This document shows, piece by piece, positions 27,186 through 34,616 of a DNA stretch of 37,794 nt (position 1 is the stretch's first letter; each line of letters begins with the position of its first letter). The notes beneath the pieces were generated by a model that saw only the letters and a list, made by a program, of their open reading frames with translations, made no database searches and had not been told where the DNA came from. The translations under genes were made by a program, and so were the position numbers. Origin of the DNA: Leptolyngbyaceae cyanobacterium C42_A2020_001 (GTDB taxonomy: Bacteria; Cyanobacteriota; Cyanobacteriia; Leptolyngbyales; Leptolyngbyaceae); assembly GCA_015272515.1 (NCBI GenBank), contig JACYLN010000114.1, forward strand, positions 1 to 37,794, read 5' to 3'.

Positions 27186-30100
27186 CTAAAACCTCAACTC
27201 ATACTCAACCGAGGCGCGGGTATCGCCAGAGAAGTCAGTAGAGCTACGCAACAACAGGTTGTTGTTAATCCGATAACGCAAACCGAACTGAGCGGGTTCG
27301 CCGTTGGTCAAGATTTTGAGGACACTGACTGAAAGCGCTGGTGTGATGTCAACTGCTGCTTCTGCCGCGAGTCCCAACGTGCCGCTGGTTTCACCCGTGT
27401 CACGGTTATTGCCTGTGGTAAAGGTGGGGAACAAGCGGAATTCACTTAATCCCAACGTTCGTCCGATCGCCGTTTGCACATTCGCCAATAAGGCTGACCC
27501 TGCCAGATTGGCAAGCCCTAGCAAAGTGCCGCCCCGTCCCAATGTATCTACATAACCGCCACCAATTAACGCCACAATCTCTGACTCTGATCGCGGCGGA
27601 CTGCTCGTTAACTCTAGATTGTCTGAAAGGCGACTGGCTGGTCCCACCACCTCTGCTCGCACTCGTACTGTTCGCAGTGAACCGAAGCTAGAGGCTGGAG
27701 CCGGAACATCCAAAATTTCAGACGGTGCCAGTACAGAGGGTTGACGGCGATTGGTAACTTCGGGCACCAGGGCAACCAGGCGCACGTTTAACTCCGGATC
27801 AAGCCCGCGATCGGGGGCAAAAATGGCAGTTTGGGTGTAGCCCCGCTCTAGGGTGAATTGCGTGGTGAATAAGTTGACCTGCCCCGATGTTAATTGAATA
27901 GTGCCGGAAGGTTCAGGGTTGGTGACATTTCCATTAATTGTTAGGTCTCCCCTGGCGACGAAACTCAGCAATGGCTGATTCACCAACACTACACCGTTCC
28001 CCAGGGTTAATCTGAGGTCAGCAAATTCGATGTTAGAGGCTTGTGCCGTGCCAGTTTGCGCTGGTTCACCTGTCTCTGTAGCCCCAGCAGAAAGCTGCAC
28101 CTGCCCATTGCTGAGCTGAATGTTGCCGCCAATGACAGGGGCAAGAGCAGCTCCAGTAATGATTACACTGCCGTCAACTCCGCCTCGGTAAAGCCCCTTC
28201 AGGTTCAGGGCGATTTTGTTGAGCTGGACGGTGAGTGGATTCTCGATGTCTGGATCGGTTTGAGGCAACCGATTGGCCAGGGGGATAACGCCGGAAGCCA
28301 CAACTTTCCCTTGACTAAAATCGCCGCCGAATTGCTCAACCCGAATGCGATCTTGCACAAACCGGGCGATGCCGTTCACATTGGTTAGAGGTTCAGGTAA
28401 GGCTCTGGCTTGCAGGGTGGCATCTTGTAGGCGCACCAGCCCAACGGCGATCGGGTTCTTGAGAGTACCTCTCACCTGCACTCTGACTTCGCCTCGGCCA
28501 TCCACCCAACTGACTTGATTGGTGAGGATGTTTAACAGCGCTAGCCCTTCGTCTTGCACGTTGATATCCAGGCTGATGGTGTCGCTGACAGGCTCATAGC
28601 TAAACAGCTTCAGGGGAACGCTGCCAACGATGTAGAGTGGTTCTGTGTCGGCGATCGCGATCGTATTGGAGAAGTCGAGTCGAGCATTGGTGTAGGTGAA
28701 ACTGCCCCGCACAGTTTGAACATCTTTGGCATTGAGCTGGGCGTTGTTCAGGTTGTATTGCCCAACAGCTTGAGGATTTTCAAAGCTACCGGAGATGGTG
28801 GCAGTGGCGTTGAGCAAGCCAGTAACATCAATGGGCAACTGCACAAGGTCAGCAAGTTGCTCAATGGGGAATTTTTCAACTCGAAGCTGCCCCGATTGGT
28901 TGGCTCCCAACAGTTGCCCAGAGAAGGCAATTACGGCATCGTCAGATTGCAGCCGCAGAGGCAGCAGTGTTAATTCGCCATCCTGGAAATTACCCACAGC
29001 AACCACTTGTTTGGCAGTGAAGCGTCCCCATTGGAAATCTTGCCCCCGGATATTAAAGTTGGCATCAATCCCAGAAGCCAGGGAGCCAGCTACGTCAATT
29101 GTTCCGGTGAAGGTTCCCTTTAGCTCTGACAGATCTGGAACAATTGCCGCCTCACTCTGAGACTGCCGAATTGCTTGCAAAGCTTGAATTTCGGCTAAAC
29201 GTCGCAGTTGGGTTTGGATGGAGACATTGGTAGCATCGATGGGAACGGTTTGTAAGTCGGCGGCACGCCCATAGATAGGGGCACGAGTGCCACGTTGAAA
29301 GTCCTGAATTTCAAAGATTTGCAAGGCTTCCAGTACGTCTTGAATATTGCCTTGAGCGATGTTGATTTGCCCTTTGAATTTGGGGTCAGGGCTGAACAAG
29401 TTAGCAGAGGCATCGAGTTGCAGAATGGTTTGTCCCCGTCGCAACTGTCCCCCTATTAAGGTAGCAATGCCGTTGGCGAAGTTAATCCGTCCGGTGAATT
29501 CATCTGCCCGGTAGCCACCCAATCCAGGTTGGGCGATCGCGATGTCACCTGTGGCAGTTCGACGATCCAGATTTACAGCAAAGGTGCCGTTGAGGGTGCC
29601 GCTGGGCGAGAACTGGTTAGACAAGCCTGGCAACTGCGCCAACGCCAGCGGGAAGTTTTTCACGTTGACTAACAGGAGTTCACCCTGGGTGCGTCCTTCG
29701 GCAATCGCATCGCCTCGGCGAATCTCAAAGGCGATCGGGCGGAAGCGCGAATCTAAGACGGCGGCAATCCGATCTTGCTGACCTCTTAGATCTAGCCGCA
29801 CCCCCTGACCATATTGAAGTTTTCCTGAAAGGTACGGTTCAAACGCTACGCCATTCACAATCAATTGTTTGAGTGCCAGGTTGCCGTTCACATTCAACGC
29901 AGTCGGTGTGCCTGTAATTTTGCCAGCAAAATCGGTGCGCCCGGAGTAGTTGATGTTGCCTGGTAGATTAACAGCAAAATCCTGGAGATTGTAATCATCT
30001 AGCCGCACATTGAGATCTAGTCCTGTAATGGCGGGGGTGCCTTCTAGCCGCAGGGCGATCGCGCCATTGGCACTGAAGCCGGGAGCGGTGGCTTCCTGAA

Positions 30101-31958
30101 TCAACAATTGTTGCCCGTTCCACTGAACCTGTGCCACCAACGGCTTGTCCACCACGGCAATCCCCTCGGAAAAGCGAGCAGTGCCTTGTGCCCGAATGTT
30201 GGCAGGGCTGAACGCAGACAGCGACCCAGAAGCTGTGAATTTGCCGCTAAATAGTCCTCTCAGTTCGGGAGAAAAGCGATTCAGGGGAATGCTAGAGCCA
30301 GAGACCACTGCCTGCCAGCGACCATTTGCCGCGATCGCATCAATATTGGCAGTTCCCCCTTCCACGTTGAAAGTTGTGTCTTGTAAGCGGGTAACCCCAT
30401 CGGCAATCAAAATCTTGCCTGAACCCGCATAGGTGGCATTGGGAGCGCTCCAGCGCACACTGGTTCTGATATTGTCTGCCGAACCCGAAATAAGCGCCTG
30501 GGCATCCACTGCCCTAACCGTGACCGGCAGCGGGTTGCCGTTGTTATATTCCCGTGCGATTGCGTCTCCTGGAACGCCCTGCACCAAAAAGTTGAATGCC
30601 AGTTCGGGGCGCGCCTTCCCAGCCGCATCAGTGCTGCCAAAGTCGATCCGTCCCGATCCGGTGACGGTGCCTCCAGCGGCTGGGATTGCCTGAATCCGTT
30701 GCACCACTAGTTCTTCATTGGCAGTGTTCAGTACAAAGTCAGTGCTGTAGGTTGCCAGCGCGACGCGATCGAGCCTTCCGGGTGCCACACTCCGCGCCGT
30801 TCCGGACAAAATTGGGTTCTCAATCGAACCAATCACTTTCAAATCGGCTGTAACGCGCCCGACAACGGGGAAAGGCAGTGACAGTTTCAGCGTCTCGGTT
30901 AGATCGGGCAATGTAATGGGACGCACTTTGGCGCTCAGGTTAAAGCCCTTGTTCAGATCGATCGCGCCATTCACTACACCCACCGCCTTGCCATAGCTGC
31001 CCACCACCTCTTCCGGCAAAATCTGGTTGCCGCGAAACTGAAGCGTGCCTTTGGCATTGGTAAAAGGGCGGGGAATCCCTGGAATTGCCAGGGTCACTCC
31101 TTCAAACCGAGCGGTGCCGTTGATCGGCGGATTTTTGATATTGGGACGCAGTTCTACATTGAAGTTGCCGCCGCCACGCCCTTTTGGCAAATCAAAGGGA
31201 AGGTTCAGCAGGCGATCAACTTCGGATACGAGAAAATTCTCAGCCTGCACCTGCAAATTTGTTTCTTGCGATGGCAGCAAGGTTTCGCCCAATAGTTTCA
31301 GCTTGCCGTCTGTGGCAGATTGTCCTGACAGTTCATAGGTAAACCGCTTATTCTCATCAAACAGGTCAATCTTGCCGTTGAGTTGGTTCAACACCACCGC
31401 CGATCGCTTGCCCGCGATCGTCCCCAGTCCCAACAACCGAGCTGTAGCGTTTTCTACCCGAATGGTACCAATTTCAATCCGCCCTTCGTCTGCTTGGGGC
31501 GTAAAGCGAGTCGTGATCCAGCCCTCTTTTTGCTGCTCCAAAAAAATGGCAGCATCCTTCAGCGTGATGTCTAGCTTTAGCTTGCCAGTCATCAATGTTT
31601 GAAACAGGTTAAAGCCCACTTCAATCGTTTCAACGCTTGCCTCATCCGTGTCGTTGGCTGTAGGAGGAATCGATGACTCTCCAATCACCAAGCCGGATAG
31701 GCTCACTCCTTCTACATCTCCCACCTCGACCGGACGATTCAAGGTTTCGCTCAGATTTTGGGCAACGATTCCAGGCAACTCTTTGTGGATGAAGCGCCAT
31801 CCCCAGAATGCAGCACCTCCTACGCCTGTAACTAAGACAATCCCAATGGGAATGGCAAGGCGGCGAACACGACGAAAGCGAGAGGGACGACGGGGGGGTT
31901 GGGGGTCAAGTGGGGGTTCAGAGTTGGGGTCGCGATCGGGAGTGGGTGAATGAGTCAT
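27186..31958 (-). CDS. tamB: Translocation and assembly module protein TamB
   Basis: The 1590-residue protein is an AsmA/TamB-type bridge protein. It has a basic proline-rich N-terminus, a single membrane anchor at about residues 34-53 (LAIPIGIVLVTGVGGAAFWG), then a very long beta-rich region with many short repeats of the form GxxxGSGRIDFG and NGAIAL (repeating beta-groove). The C-terminal DUF490 domain (about 1300-1590) includes SSPPRSESEIVALIGGGYVD and ends in YELRF, a terminal aromatic typical of TamB. It should span the periplasm and work with an Omp85/TamA protein in outer-membrane protein or lipid transport. I start at ATG 31958 (MTHSPTPDRD); the longer frame to 32051 adds an unsupported tail. 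It is divergent from clpP. Confidence 0.9.
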   Translation of the reverse strand: MTHSPTPDRDPNSEPPLDPQPPRRPSRFRRVRRLAIPIGIVLVTGVGGAAFWGWRFIHKELPGIVAQNLSETLNRPVEVGDVEGVSLSGLVIGESSIPPTANDTDEASVETIEVGFNLFQTLMTGKLKLDITLKDAAIFLEQQKEGWITTRFTPQADEGRIEIGTIRVENATARLLGLGTIAGKRSAVVLNQLNGKIDLFDENKRFTYELSGQSATDGKLKLLGETLLPSQETNLQVQAENFLVSEVDRLLNLPFDLPKGRGGGNFNVELRPNIKNPPINGTARFEGVTLAIPGIPRPFTNAKGTLQFRGNQILPEEVVGSYGKAVGVVNGAIDLNKGFNLSAKVRPITLPDLTETLKLSLPFPVVGRVTADLKVIGSIENPILSGTARSVAPGRLDRVALATYSTDFVLNTANEELVVQRIQAIPAAGGTVTGSGRIDFGSTDAAGKARPELAFNFLVQGVPGDAIAREYNNGNPLPVTVRAVDAQALISGSADNIRTSVRWSAPNATYAGSGKILIADGVTRLQDTTFNVEGGTANIDAIAANGRWQAVVSGSSIPLNRFSPELRGLFSGKFTASGSLSAFSPANIRAQGTARFSEGIAVVDKPLVAQVQWNGQQLLIQEATAPGFSANGAIALRLEGTPAITGLDLNVRLDDYNLQDFAVNLPGNINYSGRTDFAGKITGTPTALNVNGNLALKQLIVNGVAFEPYLSGKLQYGQGVRLDLRGQQDRIAAVLDSRFRPIAFEIRRGDAIAEGRTQGELLLVNVKNFPLALAQLPGLSNQFSPSGTLNGTFAVNLDRRTATGDIAIAQPGLGGYRADEFTGRINFANGIATLIGGQLRRGQTILQLDASANLFSPDPKFKGQINIAQGNIQDVLEALQIFEIQDFQRGTRAPIYGRAADLQTVPIDATNVSIQTQLRRLAEIQALQAIRQSQSEAAIVPDLSELKGTFTGTIDVAGSLASGIDANFNIRGQDFQWGRFTAKQVVAVGNFQDGELTLLPLRLQSDDAVIAFSGQLLGANQSGQLRVEKFPIEQLADLVQLPIDVTGLLNATATISGSFENPQAVGQYNLNNAQLNAKDVQTVRGSFTYTNARLDFSNTIAIADTEPLYIVGSVPLKLFSYEPVSDTISLDINVQDEGLALLNILTNQVSWVDGRGEVRVQVRGTLKNPIAVGLVRLQDATLQARALPEPLTNVNGIARFVQDRIRVEQFGGDFSQGKVVASGVIPLANRLPQTDPDIENPLTVQLNKIALNLKGLYRGGVDGSVIITGAALAPVIGGNIQLSNGQVQLSAGATETGEPAQTGTAQASNIEFADLRLTLGNGVVLVNQPLLSFVARGDLTINGNVTNPEPSGTIQLTSGQVNLFTTQFTLERGYTQTAIFAPDRGLDPELNVRLVALVPEVTNRRQPSVLAPSEILDVPAPASSFGSLRTVRVRAEVVGPASRLSDNLELTSSPPRSESEIVALIGGGYVDTLGRGGTLLGLANLAGSALLANVQTAIGRTLGLSEFRLFPTFTTGNNRDTGETSGTLGLAAEAAVDITPALSVSVLKILTNGEPAQFGLRYRINNNLLLRSSTDFSGDTRASVEYELRF

Positions 31959-32133
31959 AGTCCGAGGGCATCTGGAGACGGGCTTCTTGAAAAATATACC
32001 GTCTACACTACCGATTCCTGTGTCGGAGTCAACATCCTTCTGGACACTCACGAAATAGTCCAGTCCGGGTTTCCCTCACCTGCTTCCCACAACAAATCTG
32101 TAGAATGGGGAAAACATCTATTGGACAGGCTCC

Positions 32134-32739
32134 ATGATTCCCACCGTCATTGAACAGTCTGGTCGCGGCGAACGCGCCTTTGACATCTACTCGCGGCTTC
32201 TGCGGGAGCGGATTGTCTTTTTAGGACAGCAGGTTGATTCCGACCTGGCGAATTTGGTAGTCGCGCAACTGCTGTTTCTCGATGCTGAAGACCCTGAAAA
32301 AGATATTTATCTTTACATTAACTCTCCGGGTGGTTCGGTCACGGCTGGAATGGGCATTTTTGATACGATGAAGCAAATTCGCCCAAATGTTTGCACGATT
32401 TGCCTGGGTTTGGCTGCCAGTATGGGCGCATTTCTGCTTAGTGCTGGAGCTAAAGGCAAGCGCATGAGTTTGCCTCACTCTCGCATCATGATTCACCAAC
32501 CGCTGGGGGGTGCTCAAGGGCAGGCAACCGATATCGAAATCCAGGCCAAGGAAATTCTGTACCACAAACAACGCCTGAATGAACTGCTGGCAGATCATAC
32601 TGGGCAACCCCTTAGCCGGATTCAAGAAGATACGGAGCGTGATTTCTTTATGTCAGCCGAGGAGGCGAGGGATTACGGATTGATTGATCAAGTTATCGAT
32701 CGCCGTCCTTCTGCAACAAATCCTGTAGCACTTGTCTAG
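32134..32739 (+). CDS. clpP: ATP-dependent Clp protease proteolytic subunit
   Basis: The 201-residue serine peptidase has a complete catalytic triad: Ser96 ([11 protein letters not shown]), His121 ([10 protein letters not shown]) and Asp170 (EDTERDFFM), one off the E. coli numbers 97/122/171. Other hallmarks include [20 protein letters not shown] and the C-terminal [12 protein letters not shown]. It forms the tetradecameric chamber that works with ClpC or ClpX. Cyanobacteria have several ClpP paralogues plus inactive ClpR; this is an active ClpP and I cannot say which number. ATG 32134 is the standard start, preceded by ACAGG. A possible -10 (TAGAAT, 32101-32106) lies 28 bases before the start. 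A strong hairpin terminator follows. Confidence 0.95.
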
Positions 32740-32805: not shown

Positions 32806-33591
32806 TTACAGCCCACTTAATGAGGGCAGTGCGCGTAGGTAATTCAAGAAATCCATCAGTTCAGCTTCATCCAACCGCTGCCGAGTTGATTTGCCGTAGG
32901 TGCGCTTCAGATACTCCCGCCCTTCTTGCTTCGTCCAACCAATCCGATCCATTTCCACATCTGTCATTGCAATTAGAGAAGACAAATCATCAGTTTCTTT
33001 GGTTGGGGATGGGGTTTCTTTCTCAGATTGTGAGGGTTTCTGGGGCTTGGCTGTGGTTGTCGGCTTTAGCGATCGCGGGTTGGGCGAAATTGGCTCTGGT
33101 TCTGGTAGGTCGGGGGCTGAATCCACTACAAAAGTTTCAGTGTCATGGAAGTATTCCGGTTCGGGTGCCTCTTCATCCTCCACGTCAAAGGTGGGGGCAT
33201 CGTCAATGAGTTCTTTGGGGGGAATGAACGGGCTGACTGGCAGGGGAGTTTCGAGGGGGGCAGAGTCAAGCCAGGGATTGTTTGCGATCGCTGGCTTGGA
33301 GGTCAACCCGTTGCCGTTGGTCAAAGCGATAGGCTGAATGGATGCAGGTTCTACTCCATCTGCCACAATCCCTAAAAGGCTTAAGACACGAACTCGTGCC
33401 TGGTCTTCTGCCAGTTCTACAGAGGCGGCGGCAGCTATGCCCGTGGCGATCGTAGTTCCTCCCACCTGAACCAGTGCTCTCACCACAAATAGCCCTTCGT
33501 GCACCTGTACCAATTCAGTCAACAAGCTGCTGGTGGGATACCGTGCTTGCAGTTTCAGGAACAAATCATGAATCTGAACGGATGGGTGCAT
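32806..33591 (-). CDS. Unknown protein with alpha-beta-beta-beta-alpha N-terminus
   Basis: The 261-residue protein starts at ATG 33591 (MHPSVQIHDLFLKLQARYPT); the longer frame to 33717 is unsupported. Residues about 5-75 read as helix, three strands (LLTELVQVHEG, LFVVRALVQVGG, TTIATGIAAAAS) and helix (VELAEDQARVRVLSLLGI). Residues about 80-195 are an acidic, Pro/Ser/Thr-rich linker. The C-terminal segment (about 200-260) is WTKQEGREYLKRTYGKSTRQ then LDEAELMDFLNYLRAL, a small helical domain. This pattern is conserved in cyanobacterial proteins I have seen, without a known role. The N-terminal topology resembles dsRBD and Rad52-type folds, and the C-terminal tail resembles those after Rad52-like annealing domains, but this is only pattern similarity. 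Confidence 0.65.
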   Translation of the reverse strand: MHPSVQIHDLFLKLQARYPTSSLLTELVQVHEGLFVVRALVQVGGTTIATGIAAAASVELAEDQARVRVLSLLGIVADGVEPASIQPIALTNGNGLTSKPAIANNPWLDSAPLETPLPVSPFIPPKELIDDAPTFDVEDEEAPEPEYFHDTETFVVDSAPDLPEPEPISPNPRSLKPTTTAKPQKPSQSEKETPSPTKETDDLSSLIAMTDVEMDRIGWTKQEGREYLKRTYGKSTRQRLDEAELMDFLNYLRALPSLSGL

Positions 33592-33962: not shown

Positions 33963-34616
33963 TTGGAAGTTTCTGGACCAACCCGGATTCATTTTGAACG
34001 ACAGCTCAAGCGCATTCAGCGGGATGTACTGCGGATGGGCGCACTGGTTGAAAACTCATTTTGGCTGGCGCGGCAAGCACTATTTGAGCGAGATCTAGAG
34101 GCTCCAAATCAGATCTCAGTTCAGGATGACCACATTGACCAGCTCTATCGCCAAATTGAGCAAGATTGCGTCGCACTGATCGCGTTGCAATCGCCAGTTG
34201 CACAGGATCTGCGGCTTTTGAGTGCCTTGATGCAGCTTGTTCGAGATTTGGAGCGAATCGGCGACTATGCCGAAGATTTGGGCGAGATTGCGGTGCAATT
34301 GTTCCCCTACCCTAATCCTTCTCATATGGAGCAGGTGAAGCGTATGTGCGATCGCTGCCGAGCGATGCTGGCGTTGAGTCTGGCGGCTTTGTCCGATTTA
34401 GATGCAGAATCAGGCTTAGCCGTTAAAGTGCGGGATGATGCAGTTGATCTAGACTATGAAACGCTTTATCACTCGCTGGCCCAACAGCGCAACATTCAAG
34501 GGGTGGTTGAGCCGATTGTCCTGCTCGTGCTGATTATTCGTCATCTAGAACGCATGGCTGATCACGCTACCAATATTGGCAAGCGAGTGGCCTACATCGT
34601 CACGGGGCAGCGGTAA
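33963..34616 (+). CDS. phoU: Phosphate signalling protein PhoU
   Basis: The 217-residue all-helical protein contains two PhoU repeats: FERQLKRIQRDVLRMGALVE with RDLERIGDYAEDLGEIA, and SLAALSDLDAESGLAVKVRD with IIRHLERMADHATNIGKRVA. The (E/D)RxxD(Y/H)A(T/E)(D/N)(I/L)(G/A) motif pair that binds metal clusters is intact in both. PhoU represses the Pho regulon through the PstSCAB transporter and the SphS/PhoR kinase when phosphate is ample. The start is non-canonical: TTG 33963 gives the normal N-terminus and has GGTGAAA upstream, while no ATG occurs before codon 25. No pst or kinase gene is adjacent. It converges with hflX, with only 16 bases between stops. Confidence 0.9.
   Translation: MEVSGPTRIHFERQLKRIQRDVLRMGALVENSFWLARQALFERDLEAPNQISVQDDHIDQLYRQIEQDCVALIALQSPVAQDLRLLSALMQLVRDLERIGDYAEDLGEIAVQLFPYPNPSHMEQVKRMCDRCRAMLALSLAALSDLDAESGLAVKVRDDAVDLDYETLYHSLAQQRNIQGVVEPIVLLVLIIRHLERMADHATNIGKRVAYIVTGQR

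Follow-up and report, generated by a model that had tools for sequence, protein, structure and literature searches.

A conserved slr1353-family protein of cyanobacteria with a dsRBD/Rad52-like domain and a Red-beta-CTD-like module, a candidate SSB-linked DNA-maintenance factor

The stretch of DNA analyzed here (the window; 37,794 nucleotides of contig JACYLN010000114.1 from Leptolyngbyaceae cyanobacterium C42_A2020_001) encodes, on the minus strand at 32806..33591, a protein of the slr1353 family. The open reading frame comprises 261 amino acids and runs from an ATG at 33591 to 32806, with the stop codon inside these coordinates. We favor this ATG over upstream TTG and GTG starts because the relatives in loci L002 (MQQPVDFHTLF) and L003 (MYQPVDLQGLF) have a methionine at or near the same point. 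The protein matches the NCBIfam model NF058667, “slr1353 family protein”, over residues 22-255 of 261 with an E-value of 2.8e-51 and 175.2 bits, where the curated cut-off is 100 bits, and is a member of this family, the name of which tells no function. The own genome contains a single match to the protein. Downstream and convergent on the plus strand lies a gene that we take to be clpP (32134..32739), and a divergent gene, presumably phoU, is located at 33963-34616 on the plus strand, both named by sequence recognition; a 1621-aa frame at 27186-32051 on the minus strand presumably encodes a TamB/translocation-type protein, judging by its look. In 22 related loci, several of them truncated, clpP is found tail to tail with the slr1353 gene in 11, phoU inside the locus in 2 and hflX in 1. 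No RNA family reached its gathering score in the window.

The family is widespread. A sample of 292 genomes from across the phylum contained 125 with a match to the window protein at E ≤ 0.001, of which 122 belong to the window's own class (122 of 139), the other three matching via proteins of the AETRA type (see below); no match came from the 11 listed genomes of the strongly reduced genus g33. Profiles of the two halves, searched at E ≤ 0.01, found the N-terminal domain (N-domain) in 81 and the C-terminal module (C-module) in 85 of 194 genomes. Among the fetched loci, where 139 ORFs have the C-module, it is present in 112 of 112 ORFs with the N-domain (duplicates counted). An alignment of 37 N-domains, the window's included and 15 of 52 ORFs excluded as near-duplicates or truncated, has seven invariant columns (P19, V37, A61, E62, D63, A65 and R68). 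Given these columns and the matches in 125 of 292 genomes, the observation is far beyond chance. A Pfam scan of the window protein matched no family, and there is no family of single-strand annealing proteins (SSAPs) among the 14 Pfam families listed for the 34 members of alignment A3, from which three multi-module proteins were excluded. Phage records searched with the window protein yielded nothing beyond one phage (two records) at E 0.8, and sequence searches of solved structures with the protein and with alignments A1 and A2 (the modules of L021 excluded from the latter) produced no credible match. The name slr1353 occurs in PMC3516471, where it refers to an antisense RNA in a table of expression data; search listings of the published literature show no chromosomal strand-annealing protein that is widely conserved in cyanobacteria.

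An earlier note on this DNA had read from the sequence a helix-strand-strand-strand-helix N-terminus, a long disordered acidic linker and a compact C-terminal helical module. The residues that it quoted from both termini are present in the 261-aa frame, and an AlphaFold model based on a 34-sequence alignment reproduces all three parts, with confidence restricted to residues about 4-80 and 201-254. The N-domain (residues about 4-75; 33367..33582, minus strand) is predicted to consist of a helix (4-17), three strands (21-31, 34-43 and 46-55) and a second helix (58-72), with block pLDDT values of 87-97 over residues 11-80. The proline-rich linker (residues 77-200; 32992..33363, minus strand) contains 24 prolines and 23 Asp or Glu against 8 Lys or Arg residues, and pLDDT values of 48-59 across blocks 81-200 indicate disorder. 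The C-module (residues 201-254; 32830..32991, minus strand) forms three predicted helices (201-217, 221-232 and 242-254), with a mean pLDDT of 92.7 when modeled alone.

Fold searches place the N-domain near both folds that the earlier note had guessed, the double-stranded RNA-binding domain (dsRBD) and the Rad52 type. The list of Foldseek matches is topped by dsRBDs (5npg, E 6.2e-4; Staufen 7e4v, target-normalized TM 0.70), and in VIA-align the best dsRBD is again 7e4v (Z 9.3, rmsd 2.1, 71 aligned residues), with Mgm101 (9yi9) at Z 8.2 (rmsd 3.5, 81 aligned) and RAD52 at 8.1-7.8 (8ril, Z 8.1, rmsd 2.4, 71 aligned). The model has the alpha-beta-beta-beta-alpha arrangement of the dsRBD (PF00035) as well as the three-stranded sheet crossed by a helix that is found in Rad52 and other SSAPs, and the two folds are resembled about equally, RAD52 and Mgm101 scoring about 1 Z unit below the best dsRBD, level with many other matches. 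A beta-hairpin belongs to the SSAP core motif (PMC11783212); this element is absent from the 76-residue N-domain, the model of which has three strands only. In a search of viral models with the whole model, the top matches were mostly uncharacterized phage proteins, and lower down there were dsRBD proteins, two SAK3 proteins (ranks 24 and 29) and one Rad52/59/22 protein (rank 34), the SAK3 and Rad52/59/22 matches having weak E-values of 8e-3 to 2.5e-2.

The residues fit the dsRBD less well than the fold does. At the two sites where a dsRBD begins helix 2 with its lysine pair, the 37 aligned N-domains have Val, Ile or Leu in all 37 and Glu in 36 or Ala in one, so that Lys or Arg occurs at either position in none, as opposed to Lys-Lys in 16 and a single Lys in 3 of 19 RNase III dsRBDs. 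The dsRNA-binding role proposed in the earlier note finds no support here: the fold suits it, the key residues do not. The mean net charge of the 37 N-domains is -1 (range -3 to 1) versus +1.5 for 18 dsRBDs, and the window's own N-domain has 5 Lys or Arg and 6 Asp or Glu residues. With this charge and no lysine pair, a strongly basic surface of the N-domain is unlikely; the lack of such a surface had been named as evidence against a nucleic-acid role, and a near-neutral domain goes part of the way there. Arginine is kept at R68 in 37 of 37 sequences and at R38 in 36 (Lys in one), and E59, E62 and D63 are conserved acidic residues.

We compared the N-domain by hhalign with several profiles, and each shuffle count given here applies to its single comparison. 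The best result was obtained with a family that we call AETRA, a working name taken from its MAETRA motif, which comprises seven sequences from basal members of the phylum and from phages or viruses (4 of 146 genomes of the phylum, 2 of 50,697 phage records and one viral contig): the probability was 73 and the score 30.5, with a best score of 15.3 in 100 shuffles and 15.9 for reversed sequences. Against RNase III dsRBDs (a profile built from 13 of the 19 loci, one strand only), the score of 18.7 exceeded all 60 shuffles but the probability was just 8, a weak similarity. The Rad52 comparison fared worse, with a probability of 0.7 and a score of 14.55 against four PF04098 N-domains (best of 60 shuffles, 14.37), which is no usable similarity. 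Two Sak3-like sequences gave a score of 14.1, equaled or exceeded by 5 of 60 shuffles, and residues 1-188 of Red-beta were matched as well by 4 of 60 shuffles; hhalign thus lends no support to membership in the Rad52, Sak3 or Red-beta families by sequence, and the window protein is not matched by profiles of the Rad52/SSAP superfamily (PF04098, PF06378). Taken together, the fold searches and profile scores put the N-domain into the dsRBD/Rad52 fold space with one clear sequence link, to AETRA. The AETRA profile itself matched neither dsRBDs, where 14 of 59 shuffles scored as high, nor Rad52, where 46 of 59 did.

The AETRA family of phages and basal genomes probably has a recombination context, and only two observations tie it to annealing: one phage member is annotated as “DNA repair and recombination protein”, and another (L133) lies directly upstream of ssb. 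SSB-like tails terminate two of the three phage or viral members (L224:2962-3627, QDDDLPF; L134:4977-5630, KEDKPPF). Three of the four basal members carry the C-module (hhalign probability 98.9), and the fourth (L223) has none within its 170-aa frame. A sequence search of solved structures with phiT1 gp34 matched nothing, and a basal AETRA protein found no relative among viral contigs.

The C-module alone, searched against the whole PDB, found the C-terminal domain (CTD) of Red-beta first (6m9k, and 8tfu with an SSB peptide), with a query TM of 0.63-0.67, a probability of up to 0.63 and weak Foldseek E-values of 2.6 and above. In VIA-align, this match reached Z 7.8 (rmsd 2.1-2.2, 57-59 aligned residues; next fold, 5.6), which for a small helical bundle is middling and within the range of chance arrangements. 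The C-terminus of the 80-alpha Sak annealase (8qe9) is also among the matches (Z 4.7), and the module has the three-helix arrangement of the Red-beta and Sak CTDs that bind the SSB tail. By sequence, the module shows no similarity to Red-beta, 19 of 60 shuffles scoring as high in hhalign. The C-module profile did match the C-termini of three Rad52 proteins with a probability of 86 and a score of 31, which none of 60 shuffles reached. Four such PF04098 proteins had been retrieved from the phylum, and L225 was left out of this comparison; one of the three used (L226) also matches GemA at 1.7e-4, below the GemA cut-off. The N-terminal module of Mu GemA (PF06252) shows some likeness (probability 21, none of 60 shuffles as high), and of 34 family members, 4 have weak Pfam matches to GemA, the best at E 0.0082; these are, however, under the cut-off, and a stretch of GemA starting at residue 91, used as a control, does not match (39 of 60 shuffles score as high). 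The phage AETRA proteins phiT1/L224 matched weakly at their C-termini (probability 2, none of 60 shuffles as high). Across 42 aligned C-modules, W219, L228, L245, F248 and L252 are present in all 42, R237 in 40, and R216 and K234 in 39. In Red-beta, the lysines that contact SSB are K214 and K253. Overall, the window protein resembles the Rad52/Red-beta/Sak3 SSAPs (PF04098, PF06378) in the core fold of its N-domain and, in the C-module, Red-beta by fold and Rad52 C-termini by profile; it differs from them in the small, hairpin-less N-domain that lacks a usable Rad52 or Sak3-like profile match.

The C-module is shared with other proteins. We fetched 23 places, a subset of all such places, where it occurs without the N-domain. 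Seven are dual-OB (DuOB) proteins, confirmed by Pfam in 7 of 7, with the module at the end, and one of these (L125) terminates in EDDIPY. Two are reverse transcriptases (L116:2265-4034 and L117:2384-4237; best PADLOC model RT_XIII, E about 1e-160) that combine TPR repeats with the C-module and have tails like the tip of SSB, TDDPPF and LDEPPF. One UvrD-type helicase (L113:2-1867; best PADLOC model GajB) and one CyRepA1-type plasmid replication protein (L118:2-3208) have the module at or near the C-terminus, and there are one McrB-like AAA protein, one P4-primase-like protein (under the family cut-off), three AETRA-type proteins, one short ORF and one fragment. The remaining five form one unnamed family (MDVKLGFGSIPKPQYVFV...) ending in the C-module, four members of which were scanned against Pfam and matched nothing. 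Among plasmids, three records match the window protein, solely from residue 162 onward; for one of them the matching part belongs to a primase/polymerase gene and for another to a DUF3987 gene.

SSB is the first candidate for a partner of the C-module because the CTDs of Red-beta and Sak act via SSB and because of the tails of the SSB proteins in the own genome. The Red-beta CTD is reported to bind SSB and lambda exonuclease (PMC8303780), and efficient annealing on SSB-coated ssDNA to require the CTD of Sak80alpha and the SSB tail (PMC11846896). The own genome has two SSB genes; one (L230) encodes a protein ending in NLDDIPF and the other (L229), with the stronger Pfam match, one ending in NDEF.

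On the strength of sequence, models and analogy, we tentatively propose, with a probability of roughly 0.4, that the slr1353 protein derives from single-strand annealing proteins and acts as a cellular, non-phage factor in DNA maintenance or annealing that is linked to SSB. We infer that the C-module would dock on the acidic tail at the C-terminus of SSB, such as that of L230, or on a similar partner, and that the flexible acidic linker would give the N-domain access to ssDNA freed from SSB, where it might oligomerize and aid annealing or strand loading in repair or replication. The annealing idea of the earlier note thus survives in indirect form, through the AETRA link, the shared C-module and the Red-beta/Sak fold match, while the direct Rad52 and Sak3-like profiles are of no use for it. 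Several observations count against the main proposal, among them the low probability for the phage AETRA C-termini, the AETRA member L223 without the module and the ranking of dsRBDs above Rad52 in the fold search of the N-domain. The clpP, phoU and hflX neighborhood has no link to recombination and counts against it as well. In a broader proposal, which we consider unlikely, the slr1353 family would be a vertically conserved set of chromosomal annealing-type proteins of cyanobacteria with a miniature, hairpin-less fold. The C-module would serve generally to recruit proteins to SSB, as a tag that became fused, in cyanobacteria and their mobile elements, to helicases, retron-type reverse transcriptases, plasmid replication proteins, primases and DuOB proteins, sometimes with an SSB-like acidic PF tail.

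The chief rival, still on the doubtful side, is a pure adaptor, in which the N-domain would serve for protein-protein contact or dimerization, as do dsRBDs whose RNA binding has been lost, and the C-module would recruit the protein to SSB or the replisome, with no contact to nucleic acid. A near-neutral dsRBD-like fold without the basic pair, its conserved acidic residues and the presence of partner-binding dsRBDs among the fold matches (the Dicer-TRBP interface, 4wyq, and Miranda-bound Staufen dsRBD5, 5cff) all suit such a role, whereas R68 and R38 could touch nucleic acid and the clearest profile link of the N-domain, among the families compared, is to AETRA. That the protein is a divergent dsRNA binder with structured RNA as its target appears improbable: the top fold matches are mostly dsRBDs and the RNase III profile scores above its shuffles, but the lysine pair is missing throughout, and those partners of the C-module that can be named are mostly DNA-metabolism or mobile-element proteins. 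A ribosome-associated factor, such as kin of hibernation promoting factor (HPF), is very improbable despite hflX nearby in the window and matches to HPF (4hei, Foldseek E 8.7e-3) and a mitoribosomal chain (4v1a_h, Z 8.2), since hflX is close in just one related locus, HPF is placed under the leading dsRBDs and the ribosomal assembly chain 8d8l reaches a mere Z 2.5 among the C-module matches.

A role in competence was also considered. DprA is reported in 144 of 145 genomes of the class, in several small genomes only at E about 1e-4; four g33 genomes in this sample have neither a strong DprA nor slr1353, three genomes have slr1353-like matches without a strong DprA, and two have DprA without an slr1353 match. 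Because of these mismatches in both directions, the co-occurrence lends no support to such a role, and the available portion of a natural-competence screen (PMC7125226) does not name the protein. Other annealing proteins are scattered in the phylum, with Rad52 in 5 of 98 genomes and weak Sak3-like matches in 3 of 292. The slr1353 protein is conserved but unstudied and, judging from the models, probably a DNA-maintenance helper. If the SSB-linked reading is correct, a protein of 122 of the 139 class genomes would enter the SSB-centered repair network, and one small domain would flag the cyanobacterial helicases, reverse transcriptases and replication proteins that are brought to SSB.

Some slr1353 proteins themselves end in LPF, ESPF, VPF or PDPIAGF and many otherwise, the window protein in LSGL. 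For background, 125 different ORFs with a length of 150 aa or more were drawn mechanically from L002-L023; of these, 7 have a terminal F and none a terminal PF. As a meaningful feature, these SSB-like tails are suggestive only, and the PDPIAGF tail seems to go back to a single inherited event. Some relatives have two or three C-modules, and one ORF (L075:579-1415, genome G125), directly downstream of an slr1353 gene, encodes four tandem C-modules without an N-domain and ends in PNPIAGF.
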